This document shows, one piece after another, positions 9,759 to 29,074 of a DNA stretch of 32,701 nucleotides (positions are counted from its first letter, which is position 1; the number at the start of each line of letters is the position of its first letter). The DNA lies in NCBI GenBank assembly GCA_027028665.1, contig JALVIU010000206.1, positions 1-32,701 of the forward strand. Direction: 5' to 3'. Below the pieces are notes generated by a model. It did not search any database. It saw only the letters and a program-made list of their open reading frames with translations, and was not told the DNA's origin. The DNA comes from Candidatus Atribacteria bacterium. GTDB lineage: Bacteria > Atribacterota > JALVIU01. The position numbers and the translations under genes were made by a program.

Positions 9759-10793
9759 TTACCTTGGTAAAGAGTATATCTCTTTTGTCCATTTATCTAC
9801 GATTTCTTTTCTGTGCTCTCCCGCCCACTTGAAATCGTATTTTATAAGTTTTACATCATCAAAGGATACACCATACTTCCTTATAACTTCAGGAAGAGGT
9901 GCTTTTTTGTTACTTGGAAGCTGATAAGATTCTGCCTTTGGTGCAAGTGCCTGGATATCTGGACGAAGTACAAAATCTACAAACTGCTTTGCAACCTGTG
10001 GATGTGGGCACCAGTTTATAATACTTAATCCACCGATCTCATAACCTGTTCCATCTGCAGGAGGAATAGGAACTATAGGATAACCCTGTTCTGCAAACTT
10101 AACTACATCGTGGAGGAAGATAATAGAGATTGCAATCTCTCCCTTTCCAGCCATAGGACCAGATGCAGCACCAGACTTTGTATAGACTGCAATGTTTTTA
10201 TGGAGTCTTGCAAGGTAGTCCCAACCTTTTTCCCATCCCATAAGCTGTAATATGGTAGAAAGTGTAGTAAATGCGGTACCTGAGGTATTTGGATTTGCCA
10301 TACCTATAAGGCCTTTGTAACATGGTTTTGTAAGATCTTCCCATACCTTTGGAATAGGAAGTCCTTTAGATTTTAAGAGCTCTACATTTACACCCCAGCC
10401 AAGAGGACCTGCATATAAACCCTTTACCATATAAGCAATAGCAGGGTTCTTTGCCCAATCTCTGAGCTCAGGGATCATTGGAGATGTTGGATATGGCTGT
10501 AATAATCCCTCAAGTGCTGCTTCATAGTGAGGGTCAAGGGTACCACCAAACCATACATCACCTTGAGGATTGTTCATCTCTGCTTTGATCTTTGCCAGGG
10601 TCTCACCGGAGGATCTTCTTGTCCAGTCAACAGGGATACCTGTTGCTTTGGTGAATTCATGTGCAACAAGTGCAACCCACTTCTCTGCAGGGCTACCATA
10701 AAGTACTAATCTCTTTTCCCCTGCAAATGCAGAAAATGAAAAGGCAAAAATCAAAAGTAATGAAACGAGTAAGAATACCTTAAAGGTACGCAT
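9759..10793 (-). CDS. Extracellular solute-binding protein, family 1 (paralogue A)
   Basis: A 344-residue periplasmic/extracellular binding protein with a signal peptide (MRTFKVFLLVSLLLIFAF, cleavage probably after AFA) and no lipobox. The mature part starts GEKRLVLYGSPAEKW and has TRRSSGETLAKI, GDVWFGGTLDPHY, GMANPNTSGTAFT and SGPMAGKGEIAI, typical of the AfuA/phosphonate-type family 1 proteins. I do not see the adjacent Tyr-Tyr pair of classic FbpA iron proteins, so the ligand is open. The start is the ATG at 10793, preceded by AAAAGGAGG; a further upstream ATG at 10823 would put the SD inside the gene. It is about 84% identical to the next gene upstream and lies just before the permease gene. 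Confidence 0.92.
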   Translation of the reverse strand: MRTFKVFLLVSLLLIFAFSFSAFAGEKRLVLYGSPAEKWVALVAHEFTKATGIPVDWTRRSSGETLAKIKAEMNNPQGDVWFGGTLDPHYEAALEGLLQPYPTSPMIPELRDWAKNPAIAYMVKGLYAGPLGWGVNVELLKSKGLPIPKVWEDLTKPCYKGLIGMANPNTSGTAFTTLSTILQLMGWEKGWDYLARLHKNIAVYTKSGAASGPMAGKGEIAISIIFLHDVVKFAEQGYPIVPIPPADGTGYEIGGLSIINWCPHPQVAKQFVDFVLRPDIQALAPKAESYQLPSNKKAPLPEVIRKYGVSFDDVKLIKYDFKWAGEHRKEIVDKWTKEIYSLPR

Positions 10794-10828
10794 AATAAAA
10801 ACCTCCTTTTGTAATTTATTCATCTTTA

Positions 10829-10891: not shown

Positions 10892-11926
10892 TTACCTTGG
10901 TAAAGAGTATATCTCTTTTGTCCACTTATCAAGTATCTCTTTTCTGTGCTCTCCCGCCCATTTGAAGTCGTATTTTATAAGTTTTACATCATCAAGAGAT
11001 ACCCCATATTTTGTCATAACAGGGGGAAGAGGTGCTTTTTTATTGCTTGGAACTTGATTTGCCTCTGCCTTTGGTGCAAGTGCCTGGATATCTGGACGAA
11101 GTACAAAATCTACAAACTGTTTTGCAACATGTGGATGCGGACACCAGTTTATAATACTTAATCCACCGATCTCATAACCTGTTCCATCTGCAGGAGGTGT
11201 AGGCTTTAGAGGATAACCTTTTTCTGCAAATTTTACTGCATCATCTAAGAAGATAATTGCAATAGCAATCTCTCCCTTTCCAGCCATAGGACCAGATGCT
11301 GAACCAGATTTTGTATAGACTGCGATGTTTTTATGCAGTTTTTTTAGATAATTCCAACCCTCATCCCAACCTTTTAATTGTAGAATAGTGGCGAGTGCAG
11401 TAAATGCGGTACCTGAAGTATTTGGATTTGCCATACCTATAAGGCCTTTGTAACATGGTTTTGTAAGATCATCCCATACCTTTGGAATAGGAAGTCCTTT
11501 GGACTTTAAAAGTTCTACATTTATGGCCCAACCAAGAGGTCCAGCATATAAACCCTTTACCATATAAGCAAAGGCTGGATTTTTTGCCCATTCCTTAAGT
11601 TGCGGAATCATTGGGGATGTTGGATATGGCCATAATAATCCCTCAAGTGCTGCTTCATAGTGAGGGTCAAGGGTACCACCAAACCATACATCACCTTGAG
11701 GATTGCTCATCTCTGCTTTAATCTTTGCCAGGGTCTCACCTGTAGATCTTCTTGTCCAGCTTACTGGAATGCCAGTTTGCTTCTGAAATTCCTGAGCAAT
11801 AAATGAGACCCAGGTTTCCTCAGAACTGCCGTAAAGTACAAGCCTTTTTTCCCCGGCAAGTGCAGAAATAGTAAACATGAAGATAAATGCTAAAAGAAAA
11901 ACTAAAAAGATTTTAAAAATACGCAT
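10892..11926 (-). CDS. Extracellular solute-binding protein, family 1 (paralogue B)
   Basis: A 344-residue twin of the following gene, with its own signal peptide (MRIFKIFLVFLLAFIFMF, cleavage probably after ALA). Long blocks are identical in both proteins (GDVWFGGTLDPHYEAALEGL, GMANPNTSGTAF, DGTGYEIGGLSIINWCPHP, NKKAPLP). Differences gather in the signal peptide, the first 40 mature residues and a few patches, for example IFLDDAVKFAEKGYPLKPTP against IFLHDVVKFAEQGYPIVPIP. Both end in KEIYSLPR. It has no permease of its own and presumably feeds the same AfuB-type permease. The SD is AAGGAGGGGG. The two may bind different but related ligands, or one may be a higher-affinity version. Confidence 0.92.
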   Translation of the reverse strand: MRIFKIFLVFLLAFIFMFTISALAGEKRLVLYGSSEETWVSFIAQEFQKQTGIPVSWTRRSTGETLAKIKAEMSNPQGDVWFGGTLDPHYEAALEGLLWPYPTSPMIPQLKEWAKNPAFAYMVKGLYAGPLGWAINVELLKSKGLPIPKVWDDLTKPCYKGLIGMANPNTSGTAFTALATILQLKGWDEGWNYLKKLHKNIAVYTKSGSASGPMAGKGEIAIAIIFLDDAVKFAEKGYPLKPTPPADGTGYEIGGLSIINWCPHPHVAKQFVDFVLRPDIQALAPKAEANQVPSNKKAPLPPVMTKYGVSLDDVKLIKYDFKWAGEHRKEILDKWTKEIYSLPR

Positions 11927-19154: not shown

Positions 19155-19682
19155 ATGGATGAAGAAAAAAGAGATGTAGTCGAGCTTCAACTTGTAGTTT
19201 TTAAAATTGGAAGTGAAGAGTACGGTGTAGAGATCTCGGAAGTGCAAGAAATCAATAGAATGATTGAGATTACCAAGATTCCAAGAGCACCTGAGTTTGT
19301 AGAGGGTGTTATAAATCTCCGTGGTAAAGTTATCCCTGTGATTGACTTGAGAAAGAGATTTGGTATGCAGAAAAAAGAATATGATAAAAACTCCAGAATT
19401 ATAGTAGTGGAGATAGATGGCAAACTCGTAGGGATGATAGTAGATGCGGTTACAGAAGTATTAAGGATTACAAGTGATAATATAGAGCCTCCACCTCCTA
19501 TCATTGCAGGTATTGGTTCAGAATATCTAAAAGGTGTAGGAAAGTTAGATAATAGAATGCTTATCCTCCTTGACCTCTCTAAGGTGCTTACAGATGTAGA
19601 AAAGGAACATCTCCTTGAGCTCCAGGAAAGAAAAGATCTGGGAGCAGAAGAGGAGAAACAGGAAGCAGAAGTTACTACATAG
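19155..19682 (+). CDS. cheW: CheW chemotaxis coupling protein
   Basis: A 175-residue single-domain CheW. Typical parts are VVFKIGSEEYGVEISEVQEI, TKIPRAPEFVEGVINLRGKV, VIDLRKRFGM, RIIVVEIDGKLVGMIVDAVTEVLRI (19358-19470 region) and LDNRMLILLDLSKVL. The last ~25 residues are acidic and Glu-rich. CheW links chemoreceptors to the CheA kinase at the inner membrane. The ATG at 19155 is chosen because GGGGAAGGAGAGG lies directly before it; an ATG at 19134 would put that SD in the coding part. It has its own promoter and terminator and no che neighbours, so partners must be encoded elsewhere. Confidence 0.93.
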   Translation: MDEEKRDVVELQLVVFKIGSEEYGVEISEVQEINRMIEITKIPRAPEFVEGVINLRGKVIPVIDLRKRFGMQKKEYDKNSRIIVVEIDGKLVGMIVDAVTEVLRITSDNIEPPPPIIAGIGSEYLKGVGKLDNRMLILLDLSKVLTDVEKEHLLELQERKDLGAEEEKQEAEVTT

Positions 19683-19719
19683 ACTTAACAAAAACTTTAT
19701 AAGATAGGGTTAGTTTTCA

Positions 19720-19758
19720 TTAACTAAAGGGGCAGATGCCCCTTTAGTTAATTTTTTT
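19720..19758 (+). terminator. Strong terminator of cheW
   Basis: A 14-bp perfect stem TTAACTAAAGGGGC / GCCCCTTTAGTTAA (19720-19733, 19738-19751) with loop AGAT, then seven T. It overlaps the stop codon of the convergent DGC-protein gene. Confidence 0.93.
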
Positions 19759-20155
19759 CCTTTATTTTATTTATAATCTTATTAGATATTCTTTCTACAT
19801 CTTTTTCGTCAAAATCAAGTGTAGGAACCTTTTCTATACCTTCTTCTGAAACAGTAATTTCATAGTATGGTTTGATCCCTTTATCCTTAACTACCTTTGA
19901 TGCACACTTTAATGGACATCCATTTATTACTATTAATTTTGGAGATTTTTTTGCAATATCTACATGAAGCTTAGAACCCGCAGCAATTGCAGTAATGCAA
20001 CACATCCTTGCAGCCTCTATCTCTTTTGTGAGTTTTACAGCTACCATATGGCCTATTTGCCCTACACTTGATGCCCCATCGCATGCAACTATTATATCTA
20101 AGCGTTCTGCTTCTTTTCCGCAGTTTGGCAAAATTTGCCAGCCATTTTTTGTCAT
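19748..20155 (-). CDS. DGC-domain putative zinc-binding protein
   Basis: A 135-residue protein of the DGC family (named for its conserved Asp-Gly-Cys), annotated as putative zinc-binding. Cys residues are at about 12, 25, 52, 53, 80 and 84: VACDGASSVGQIGHMVAVKL, ARMCCITAIAAG and VINGCPLKCASKVV. The family is small, cytoplasmic and has no proven function; it often appears near redox or metal genes. The SD AAGGAGGG and the ATG at 20155 are both inside a predicted hairpin whose other arm is the end of the upstream leader ORF, so its translation is probably controlled. The gene converges on cheW and shares the overlap with its terminator. Confidence 0.78.
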   Translation of the reverse strand: MTKNGWQILPNCGKEAERLDIIVACDGASSVGQIGHMVAVKLTKEIEAARMCCITAIAAGSKLHVDIAKKSPKLIVINGCPLKCASKVVKDKGIKPYYEITVSEEGIEKVPTLDFDEKDVERISNKIINKIKEKN

Positions 20156-20210
20156 AGTATATCCCTCCTTTTTGGATTAATAATATGGTAGAAGGGGGAA
20201 TATACTATGA
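20152..20210 (-). promoter_or_regulatory. RBS-sequestering hairpin between leader ORF and DGC gene
   Basis: In the minus-strand RNA TCATAGTATAT (20200-20210) pairs perfectly with ATATACTATGA (20152-20162). After a 1-nt bulge, CCC pairs with GGG (20163-20165), and after a mismatch three more pairs reach into AAGG. The 3' arm covers the SD and the ATG (20153-20155) of the DGC gene. The 5' arm contains the leader's Ser codon and its UAG stop. Confidence 0.7.
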
Positions 20211-20267
20211 ACCTACCCAACAGCAGTGACAGTGTTTATGTTTGCATTTAGACCTTATTTTTTTCAT
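20205..20267 (-). CDS. 20-residue Cys/His-rich leader peptide
   Basis: The reverse strand encodes a very short peptide, MKKIRSKCKHKHCHCCWVGS, then TAG. It has four Cys and three His in ten residues, an arrangement that could bind Zn or another soft metal, or could sense Cys/His supply through ribosome stalling. No SD precedes the ATG. A TTGACA/TATCAT promoter puts the transcript start about one base before the ATG, so it would be translated as a leaderless mRNA. Its last codons form one arm of the hairpin that hides the start of the DGC zinc-binding gene. The coding nature is inferred from this layout and the unusual composition; I know of no named homologue. Confidence 0.5.
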   Translation of the reverse strand: MKKIRSKCKHKHCHCCWVGS

Positions 20268-20274
20268 TATTAAT

Positions 20275-20303
20275 ATGATATATTGTAAATTGTTTTTTGT
20301 CAA
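20275..20303 (-). promoter_or_regulatory. Promoter of the leader peptide-DGC transcript
   Basis: On the reverse strand TTGACA (20298-20303), 17 nt, TATCAT (20275-20280). Seven nt separate the -10 box from the ATG of the leader ORF, the same distance as at allH. Confidence 0.72.
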
Positions 20304-20304
20304 G

Positions 20305-20328
20305 CGAATATTCGAAGATTCGAAAATA
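20305..20328. repeat. Three tandem 8-bp repeats between divergent promoters
   Basis: CGAATATT, CGAAGATT and CGAAAATA follow each other without gaps. The first two also create the palindrome CGAATATTCG (20305-20314) and two copies of TTCGAA. They sit 1 nt upstream of the -35 box of the leader/DGC promoter and 23 nt upstream of the uxaC extended -10, so they may bind a regulator of either unit. Confidence 0.55.
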
Positions 20329-20351
20329 AATATTTATTGTAATCCTATTTA

Positions 20352-20360
20352 TGATATAAT
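20352..20360 (+). promoter_or_regulatory. Extended -10 promoter of uxaC
   Basis: TGATATAAT matches TGnTATAAT exactly. The -35 position holds only ATTTAT. It lies 33 nt before the uxaC start. Confidence 0.6.
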
Positions 20361-20393
20361 TGAGAAGATTTAATTGAGATAAAGGAGGGAGAT

Positions 20394-21758
20394 ATGGGAT
20401 TTTTAGGTGAAAACTATTTACTTACAAATTCTTATGCCAGGATACTCTTTGATACCATAAAGGATATGCCCATAGTAGATCCTCATAACCATGCAGATAT
20501 AAAGGAGATCGTGGATAATACTCCATGGACAGACATATGGGAGGTAGAGGGGGCTACAGATCATTATGTATGGGAACTTATGAGAAAAAGGGGTATCCCT
20601 GAGGAAAAGATTACAGGGAATGCAACAAATAAAGAAAAATGGATGGCATTATGTGAAGTATTTCCAGAATTTGTCGGAAACCCCGTTTATGAATGGGTAC
20701 ATCTGGATCTAAAACATATATTCGGTATAGATGATGTTATATCTTCTTATACAGCTGAAAAGATCTGGCAGGAGACTTCTCGTATCTTAAAAGAGGACAG
20801 GATGAGACCCCAGAGCCTTTTAAAATTAATGAATGTTGAGATATTATCTACCACAGATGACCCTACAGATGACCTTGCCTATCACGAAAGGGCAAGGGAA
20901 TTAGAGGGAGTACACATTACTCCTACATGGCGCCCAGATAAGGCAATGAACATAGAAAGCAAGGGATGGAGAGAGTATGTAAAGAGATTAGGTGATGCAA
21001 ACGGTAGAGATACCTCTACCTTTGATGGCTTCTTAGAGGCACTTTCTGTAAGCCATCAAAGATTTGCAGAACACGGGTGTGTGGCAAGTGATCATGGCAT
21101 ACTAAGACCCGTTTCTTTTCCTGTGGATAAAAAAGATATAAGTAAAATTTTTGATAAGGCAGTTAGAGGCGAAAAACTTAGCTCCCAGGAAGTTCTTTCT
21201 TTTAAATCTTATATGCTTCTGACGTTTGGAAAAATGAATAAAGAGAGAGGCTGGGTAATGCAGCTTCACATAGGGGCCCTTAGAAACTACCGGGATAGCC
21301 TATATAGAAGTTTGGGCCTTGATTCAGGTGGTGATATATCTACAAATGCATTGGATATAGCAGGAAATCTCCGTTATTTCCTTAATCAGTTTGACGGAGA
21401 GCTTAAAATAGTACTTTATGTACTTGATCCTACACATCTACCTACTATTGCCACTATTGCAAGGGCGTTTCCCAACGTGAGTCTTGGTGCTGCATGGTGG
21501 TATAATGATACACCCTTTGGCATGAAAATACACCTTGAATACATAGCTACCGTAGACCTTTTATATAACTTTGCTGGTATGGTAACAGATTCTCGAAAGC
21601 TCTTGTCTTATGGTTCTCGTACAGAGATGTTCAGGAGGGTGCTCTCCAGTGTGGTAGGGGAGTGGATAGAAAGAGGACAGATACCGCTGAAAGAAGGCAT
21701 GAGACTTGTAGAAGAGGTAAGCTACTATAGACCTCGTAAACTTTTTTACGGAAAATAA
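20394..21758 (+). CDS. uxaC: Glucuronate isomerase (uronate isomerase)
   Basis: A 454-residue amidohydrolase-fold protein. The zinc motif DPHNHAD (29-35, ligands His31 and His33) is followed by the UxaC-like parts LSTTDDPTDDLAYHERA, ITPTWRPDKAMNIE, GCVASDHGI, MQLHIGALRN, LGAAWWYNDTPFGM and GMVTDSRKLLSYGSRTEMFRR (split here only by normal sequence). It converts D-glucuronate to D-fructuronate, or D-galacturonate to D-tagaturonate, the first step of hexuronate catabolism. The length is normal. The SD GGAGGGAG precedes the ATG. No other uronate gene is next to it. It is divergent from the leader/DGC unit and is followed by a perfect palindrome. Confidence 0.95.
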   Translation: MGFLGENYLLTNSYARILFDTIKDMPIVDPHNHADIKEIVDNTPWTDIWEVEGATDHYVWELMRKRGIPEEKITGNATNKEKWMALCEVFPEFVGNPVYEWVHLDLKHIFGIDDVISSYTAEKIWQETSRILKEDRMRPQSLLKLMNVEILSTTDDPTDDLAYHERARELEGVHITPTWRPDKAMNIESKGWREYVKRLGDANGRDTSTFDGFLEALSVSHQRFAEHGCVASDHGILRPVSFPVDKKDISKIFDKAVRGEKLSSQEVLSFKSYMLLTFGKMNKERGWVMQLHIGALRNYRDSLYRSLGLDSGGDISTNALDIAGNLRYFLNQFDGELKIVLYVLDPTHLPTIATIARAFPNVSLGAAWWYNDTPFGMKIHLEYIATVDLLYNFAGMVTDSRKLLSYGSRTEMFRRVLSSVVGEWIERGQIPLKEGMRLVEEVSYYRPRKLFYGK

Positions 21759-28036: not shown

Positions 28037-28067
28037 ATAAATAAGGGGGGCTTCCCCCCTTATTTAT
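28037..28067 (+). terminator. Strong hairpin between binding-protein and permease genes (attenuator/stabiliser)
   Basis: A 14-bp perfect stem ATAAATAAGGGGGG / CCCCCCTTATTTAT with loop CTT. No T-run follows, and the next gene starts 3 nt later, so it is more likely an mRNA-stabilising or partial terminator element than a full stop. Confidence 0.75.
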
Positions 28068-28069
28068 AA

Positions 28070-29074
28070 ATGATTATGAACATAAAAAGTAGATTAATTC
28101 AGATAATATTTACACTTTTTGGACTTTCTGTGCTTATCTTCTTTCTTGCCCGTGTTATGCCTGGAGATCCTGCAAGATTGGCATTGGGACCTGAGGCTAC
28201 ACAGGAACAGGTTGAGGATCTGCGGCATAAGTTGGGACTTGACAAGCCACTTCCATATCAATATTGGGAGTTTCTGAAGGGACTTGCCCATGGAAAGATG
28301 GGGATCTCTCTTATTACAAAGAGAGATGTTTCAAAAGATATAAAAGATAGGCTCCCTGCAACCCTTGAGCTTATAATATTTGCGATGACATTCTCTGTCA
28401 TTGTAGGTGTACCTCTTGGAATCGTGGCTGCCTTAAAAAAAGATAAGTTTTTGGACAATTTTACAAGGGTATTTGCTTTTTCTGGGGTATCTTTTCCAAG
28501 ATTTTGGATAGGTATAATGTTTCAATTGATCTTTGCATATGCCTTATCGCTTTTACCCCTTACAGGAAGAATATCTGGTGACCCCCCTACCCATATTACG
28601 GGTTTTTATGTATTGGATAGCCTGCTTACTCTTAACTTTTCTGCCCTCTGGGATGCACTTTTACACCTTGCCTTACCTGTACTTACTTTGTCTTTGTCAC
28701 CTATTGCACAGATTACAAGGCTTATAAGGGCAAATATGGTGGAGCAGATGAGAAAGGACTATACTCTTGCTTTAAGGGTAAATGGTTTACCTGAAAATCT
28801 CAATATATATAAATACATGTTGAAAAATGCCTTTACATCAACCCTTACAATTATCGGTCTTTTATTTGGCTGGCTTTTAGGAAATGCATTTGTAGTGGAG
28901 ACTGTATTTGCATGGCCTGGTATGGCAAGATATGGTATAAATTCTGTTATTAGAAAGGATTTTAACGCAGTTGTAGGGGTTACTCTTGTGGTAGGGATTA
29001 CTTATGTTATTATAAATCTTATAGTCGATATATTATACAGATATCTTGATCCAAGGATAGGGCTTGAAAAATGA
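28070..29074 (+). CDS. Dipeptide/oligopeptide ABC permease, DppB type
   Basis: A 334-residue inner membrane protein with the DppB layout: N-terminal LIQIIFTLFGLSVLIFFLARVMPGDPA (amphipathic start, TM1 and the family PGDP motif), EDLRHKLGLDKPLPYQYWEFL, five further membrane segments, and an EAA loop in DYTLALRVNGLPENLNIYKYMLKNA, where Val-Asn replaces the more usual Ala-Lys-Gly. The start is at 28070 or possibly the second Met at 28076; neither has an SD, because the upstream bases are taken up by the hairpin. The stop overlaps the next permease gene (ATGA). Confidence 0.9.
   Translation: MIMNIKSRLIQIIFTLFGLSVLIFFLARVMPGDPARLALGPEATQEQVEDLRHKLGLDKPLPYQYWEFLKGLAHGKMGISLITKRDVSKDIKDRLPATLELIIFAMTFSVIVGVPLGIVAALKKDKFLDNFTRVFAFSGVSFPRFWIGIMFQLIFAYALSLLPLTGRISGDPPTHITGFYVLDSLLTLNFSALWDALLHLALPVLTLSLSPIAQITRLIRANMVEQMRKDYTLALRVNGLPENLNIYKYMLKNAFTSTLTIIGLLFGWLLGNAFVVETVFAWPGMARYGINSVIRKDFNAVVGVTLVVGITYVIINLIVDILYRYLDPRIGLEK

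Follow-up and report, generated by a model that had tools for sequence, protein, structure and literature searches.

A cysteine- and histidine-rich leader and a start-burying hairpin as a candidate translational switch upstream of a DGC-domain gene in Candidatus Atribacteria

In a genome of Candidatus Atribacteria, the gene for a DGC-domain (putative zinc-binding) protein begins inside an 18-pair hairpin, the opposite arm of which includes the end of a 20-codon open reading frame (ORF) rich in cysteine and histidine. Our preferred reading, held tentatively and at somewhat less than even probability, is that the two elements act together by translational coupling, with a leaderless leader and a hairpin that keep the DGC gene off when ribosomes stall at the Cys/His codons. 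The locus, present in one genome, is a good candidate variant of known leader-peptide switches. The analysis covered a window of 32,701 nucleotides, i.e. the whole stretch of DNA under study, together with further sequence from the same genome and a set of other genomes.

Results

Gene, promoter and transcript boundaries

The DGC gene matches the Pfam family PF08859 with E = 1.7e-30 (105.6 bits against a cut-off of 27), and the six cysteines of its product are all invariant across eight aligned sequences. No solved structure is related to DGC by sequence, the best matches having E = 0.3. DGC proteins are widespread, cysteine-rich and poorly understood. In Pseudomonas, AnvM has been described with a DGC sequence predicted to bind zinc (PMC6650552).

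All the elements of the DGC control region lie on the minus strand of the window (Table 1). The promoter named in the sequence-only reading, TTGACA (20303-20298) and TATCAT (20280-20275) with a spacer of 17 nt, was confirmed as the top-scoring of the four sites within 19500-20600 and agrees with the consensus at 11 of 12 positions. Seven bases separate the TATCAT box from the leader ATG at 20267, and this spacing places the predicted transcription start at the leader ATG or just before it. At the other end, the gene stops at a terminator-like hairpin common to the convergent cheW, so that DGC is apparently transcribed alone. On the upstream side the diverging gene is uxaC, at 20394.

Between these two diverging genes, TTCGAA-type tandem repeats resemble a repressor operator. 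The pattern TTCGAANNTTCGAANNTTCG has no second exact copy in the genome, where the other sites carry three mismatches and are no commoner than a control pattern; the repeats were rejected as a regulon marker, since the genome is without other good copies.

Table 1 Features of the DGC locus, with window coordinates
Feature	Position	Strand	Remarks
DGC-domain (putative zinc-binding) protein gene	19748..20155 (20155-19748)	-	135 aa, six cysteines
3' hairpin arm AAGGAGGGATATACTATGA	20152..20170 (20170-20152)	-	DGC Shine-Dalgarno and ATG
Hairpin loop	20171..20191	-	21 nt
5' hairpin arm	20192..20210 (20210-20192)	-	includes leader Ser20 codon and stop codon
Leader ORF, MKKIRSKCKHKHCHCCWVGS followed by stop	20205..20267 (20267-20205)	-	20 codons, apparently leaderless, without Shine-Dalgarno
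Codons of the Cys/His run CKHKHCHCC	20220..20246	-	7 of 9 residues Cys or His
Predicted transcription start	20267..20268	-	at leader ATG or 1 nt before; from -10 spacing
Sigma-70-type promoter TTGACA-17 nt-TATCAT	20275..20303	-	consensus 11/12
Operator-like tandem repeat TTCGAATCTTCGAATATTCG	20305..20324	-	directly upstream of -35 box, between diverging DGC and uxaC
Terminator-like perfect hairpin	19719..19752	. (scored on +)	between convergent cheW and DGC

A short ORF dense in cysteine and histidine codons

The 20-residue ORF with the run CKHKHCHCC is present as first claimed. Across its six frames the window has a single nine-residue stretch with seven Cys or His, and 60 shuffled windows had none. 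The peptide has four cysteines, of which C15-C16 form the sole adjacent pair, five codons from the stop, with three histidines interspersed; it lacks proline, a signal peptide and any known arrest motif, whether Pro-rich, RAPP or other. In the source genome, neither a second exact match to the coding pattern of the run nor a second copy of the leader was found. Moreover, among the matches listed from 386 genomes, the pattern C-x-H-x-H-C-H-C-C had no exact coding match outside the window, and on this comparison the exact leader peptide does look new. A one-mismatch match in the same phylum (L091) was rejected as a leader, its frame not being a short ORF upstream of DGC.

The predicted transcript start falls at the leader ATG, which leaves the leader without a Shine-Dalgarno (SD) sequence; it would therefore have to be translated by leaderless initiation. 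That the leader would be leaderless, given the predicted transcript start, is an addition to the sequence-only reading.

A long stem that encloses the DGC start

The hairpin was recovered as proposed, with an 11-bp stem, the Ser and stop codons of the leader in its 5' arm and both the SD (AAGGAGGG) and the ATG of DGC in its 3' arm. Its uninterrupted part is longer than the 11 bp first stated: the 11 Watson-Crick pairs are followed by U-G, C-G and C-G, then by one mismatch and four further pairs, which gives 14 consecutive pairs with G-U counted and 18 of 19 positions paired. When the start-site arm was held fixed and the upstream part was dinucleotide-shuffled in 5000 trials, at least 14 consecutive pairs arose in six trials and 18 of 19 pairs in none. 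The window has 27 gene starts in all; at none of the remaining 26 is either value reached. The fold of the entire 151 nt is moderately unusual (z = -2.2; 5/200 shuffles), and as this whole-region score is modest, it is the precise overlap of the stem with the start site that carries the argument.

The hairpin ranks first among the inverted repeats listed in the window. On the scale of the genome, a background of 20 contig stretches (174 kb) holds eight inverted repeats with at least 17 of 19 complementary bases, among which the DGC hairpin is the sole one seen over a start site, the contexts of two of the other seven having been checked. No second copy of the hairpin was found in the genome. 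Another strong hairpin of the same genome (L028:2371-2427; 17 of 19 pairs, 19-nt loop) adjoins a P-type-ATPase-like gene and apparently does not cover a start codon.

Folding returned one strong hairpin with weak pairing beside it, and no alternative pairing of the classical-attenuator type was found. A search of Rfam gave nothing at the gathering score; the weak matches, all to microRNA precursors, reflect a generic hairpin. In the folding model, pairing of the SD holds at about 82-84% between 25 and 80 °C, and that of the ATG is still about 87% at 80 °C. Predicted occlusion lasting to such temperatures argues against an RNA thermometer, which was rejected on the predicted stability of the SD/ATG stem.

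Opening of the start site by ribosome position

Accessibility of the start site was modelled for each leader codon in turn: everything upstream of the 3' ribosome edge was hidden and the RNA refolded, with the edge assumed to lie 15 nt beyond the first P-site base. For all A-site codons up to Cys16, the free fraction of the DGC ATG was at most 0.05 at 37, 60 and 70 °C; with Trp17 in that site, it was 0.98-0.99. The model thus places the switch where the Cys/His run ends, a further addition to the sequence-only reading, and this point would move by one codon if the true ribosome edge differs by a few bases. The last Cys codon lies one ribosome edge from the base of the stem. In later states the ATG was partly re-paired at 37 °C (free fraction 0.55, falling to 0.11 once the stop codon was reached) and mostly free at 60-70 °C (0.55-0.99). 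A ribosome at the leader stop codon was needed before the SD became substantially free (0.41-0.68).

In the proposed mechanism, the DGC mRNA would begin at or beside the AUG of the leader, which would be read by leaderless initiation while the SD and AUG of DGC are locked in the hairpin. A ribosome completing the leader would cover the 5' arm, and DGC would be translated mainly at that moment, by coupling. If charged tRNA-Cys or tRNA-His ran low, decoding of the Cys/His codons would slow and DGC would stay off, because the stem is still intact when a ribosome waits at the last Cys codon and starts to open one codon later; a pause between Trp17 and the stop would instead turn DGC on.

The ribosome exit tunnel holds roughly 30-40 residues. 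The signal would most simply be the charging of Cys or His tRNAs, because the 20-residue chain remains within the tunnel. For the same reason, the alternative signal that had been offered, a metal bound by the nascent peptide, is not supported and is less likely than Cys or His supply.

Relatives of the gene and of its upstream region

DGC orthologues were compared in seven bacterial (L050-L054, L104, L105) and five archaeal (L007-L011) loci with readable upstream regions, about 35-68% identical to the window protein. Two loci were left out as not comparable, L103 because its DGC frame runs into upstream permease-like sequence and L055 as a partial match. Both the Cys/His leader and the hairpin are absent in all 12, each of them from a distant genome, and the leader is therefore specific to the source lineage as far as seen. 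The longest complement to the start-site region in these orthologues is 5-12 consecutive pairs, versus 14 in the window. Predicted occlusion of the ATG is not distinctive by itself, being found also in the archaeal L007 and L011, which are without the long stem.

The bacterial orthologues are scattered and share 54-65% identity with the window protein (68% for L105, a partial match), and the archaeal ones 35-53%. Within the same phylum the DGC proteins are distant, 30-36% identical, and lie inside permease/thioredoxin-like clusters; no close relative of the source genome was among the genomes compared. Plasmids likewise yielded matches to DGC proteins that are distant (about 30-34% identical). 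A search of 45 and 136 genomes from two more bacterial phyla gave no match, and no relative was found in viral contigs.

The sequence-only reading had proposed that the leader gates the DGC start and had pointed to conservation in related genomes as a check. In the model, a ribosome past Cys16 frees the ATG, and the geometry of hairpin and leader supports gating; conservation, on the other hand, does not back it, as neither ORF nor hairpin occurs in the 12 distant orthologues.

Named by eye, genes adjoining the DGC orthologues look like ArsR-type (L054, L105), PadR-type (L050) and Suf-type (L053) genes. The ArsR-like regulator gene lies upstream of the orthologue in both L105 (G564) and L054 (G306), and the DGC copy of L105 is broken by a TGA. 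In a Desulfurococcales genome (L007:322-2975) the orthologue comes after an aldehyde ferredoxin oxidoreductase-like gene, and in L008:1429-2312 a MoaD-like gene comes after DGC; judging from these neighbours, a link with tungsten/molybdenum enzymes is possible.

Discussion

Relation to described systems

By analogy, the locus shares features with mycobacterial polycysteine ORFs, CutF, CruR and the erm leaders, and it is a candidate variant of leader-peptide translational control. The earlier statement that no described system has this peptide stands for the exact sequence; as regards the type of control it is too broad, mycobacterial polycysteine ORFs and CutF having already been described.

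Cysteine-responsive leaderless polycysteine short ORFs are known from mycobacteria (PMC9094748; Canestrari et al. 2020, as cited in PMC9031893), where leader candidates for cys operons had been predicted earlier, with no conserved terminator hairpins upstream (PMC1262725). As far as the citing account of that work describes them, the present locus may resemble these ORFs: its reading frame is short, apparently leaderless and directly upstream of the gene that it would regulate, its Cys codons come close to the stop, and cysteine supply would be read as ribosome speed. On the same account, the present case differs in phylum and downstream gene and in having cysteines mixed with histidines instead of a Cys tract, and its expected logic is apparently the opposite, a stall keeping DGC off. 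Furthermore, a defined SD/ATG hairpin is found here, whereas no conserved terminator hairpins were reported at the mycobacterial cys operons (PMC1262725).

In Rhodobacter capsulatus, cutF acts in cis and is needed for cutO expression only with the SD-shielding stem-loop intact; CutF, which is exported, has a signal peptide and a Cu-binding motif, as well as a proline-rich stalling-like motif at its C-terminus (PMC9973294). The DGC locus is similar in that the SD of the next gene is shielded by a stem-loop preceded by an upstream ORF. Membership of the CutF group was rejected, the leader having 20 residues and neither signal peptide nor proline-rich stalling motif. CruR (DUF2946) of Bordetella pertussis, with a CXXC motif, a RAPP arrest motif and Rho-dependent termination (PMC9426467), is also a Cys-containing upstream ORF, the nascent protein of which controls downstream genes; here too membership was rejected, as the leader lacks CXXC and a C-terminal RAPP. 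In the erm leaders (ermC, ermB), the position of the ribosome relative to an SD-hiding hairpin decides whether the start is free (PMC5118997). A leader ORF and an SD-sequestering hairpin are common to both, but in the present case the 3' end of the leader itself sits in the anti-SD arm, there are no strong competing or mutually exclusive stems, and there is no link to a drug.

Alternative explanations

The most serious rival, unlikely but with a real claim on attention, is that the hairpin alone controls DGC translation or mRNA stability, whether by protein or small-molecule binding, autoregulation or damping, and that the Cys/His ORF is an untranslated bystander. The stem is statistically solid by itself, the ORF is absent in every relative examined, and a leader without SD would need leaderless initiation. 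Against a bystander speak the position of the ORF, which begins at the predicted transcript start and ends inside a hairpin arm, the last Cys codon standing a single ribosome edge away from the base of the stem, and its improbable composition; no Rfam family at threshold accounts for the hairpin. It is rather improbable that the peptide arrests the ribosome as a sensor of metal or thiol, a bound or modified CKHKHCHCC halting it between Trp17 and the stop and holding the hairpin open with DGC on. The Cys/His composition would suit metal binding, the ATG opens in the masking model when the ribosome pauses at Trp17 or beyond, metal-responsive upstream ORFs exist in CruR (PMC9426467) and CutF (PMC9973294), and the orthologues L054 and L105 lie near ArsR-like regulator genes; the short chain, however, stays in the exit tunnel, lacks any Pro-rich, RAPP or other known arrest motif, and has no conservation behind its sequence.

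Quite improbable as well is an inverted repeat without a regulatory role in the RNA, i.e. a DNA operator or an evolutionary accident such as a template-switch palindrome. The locus is known from a single genome, and the same genome has the strong L028 hairpin in a different context; yet the arms of the DGC hairpin coincide with the SD, the ATG and the leader stop, and the other gene starts of the window have no comparable upstream complement. Least probable, and very much so, is a functional metallothionein-like micropeptide co-expressed with DGC, with a hairpin that merely couples the two translations: four Cys and three His in nine residues beside a cysteine-rich DGC gene would fit it, but the peptide has only 20 residues, is absent beside all the orthologues examined and has no second copy in the genome. 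Coupling through a leaderless Cys/His leader and the start-burying hairpin remains the reading that we prefer.

Implications and further features of the window

If the preferred reading is true, leaderless leaders that read codon supply extend beyond actinobacteria. DGC proteins would gain a regulatory clue, their production being tied to cysteine, histidine or metal status, and the locus would be a compact system in which to ask whether an on/off switch is set by where one codon stands with respect to a hairpin. A bolder form of the idea, which we consider doubtful, is an inverse logic: the start of a cysteine-rich protein would open only once ribosomes are past the last Cys codon, and if Cys or His ran short, or were captured by metal or thiol stress, DGC would be shut off with one-codon precision, a control of which none has been described in this lineage.

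Elsewhere in the window, a perfect 14-bp hairpin with a C/G run (28037-28067, plus strand) lies just before the ATG of a transporter permease gene at 28070, after a binding-protein gene, and is possibly an intra-operon terminator or an mRNA-stabilising element. On the minus strand, two adjacent and closely similar substrate-binding-protein genes (9759-10823 and 10892-11926) stand beside one ABC transporter, which suggests that the pair arose by tandem duplication.
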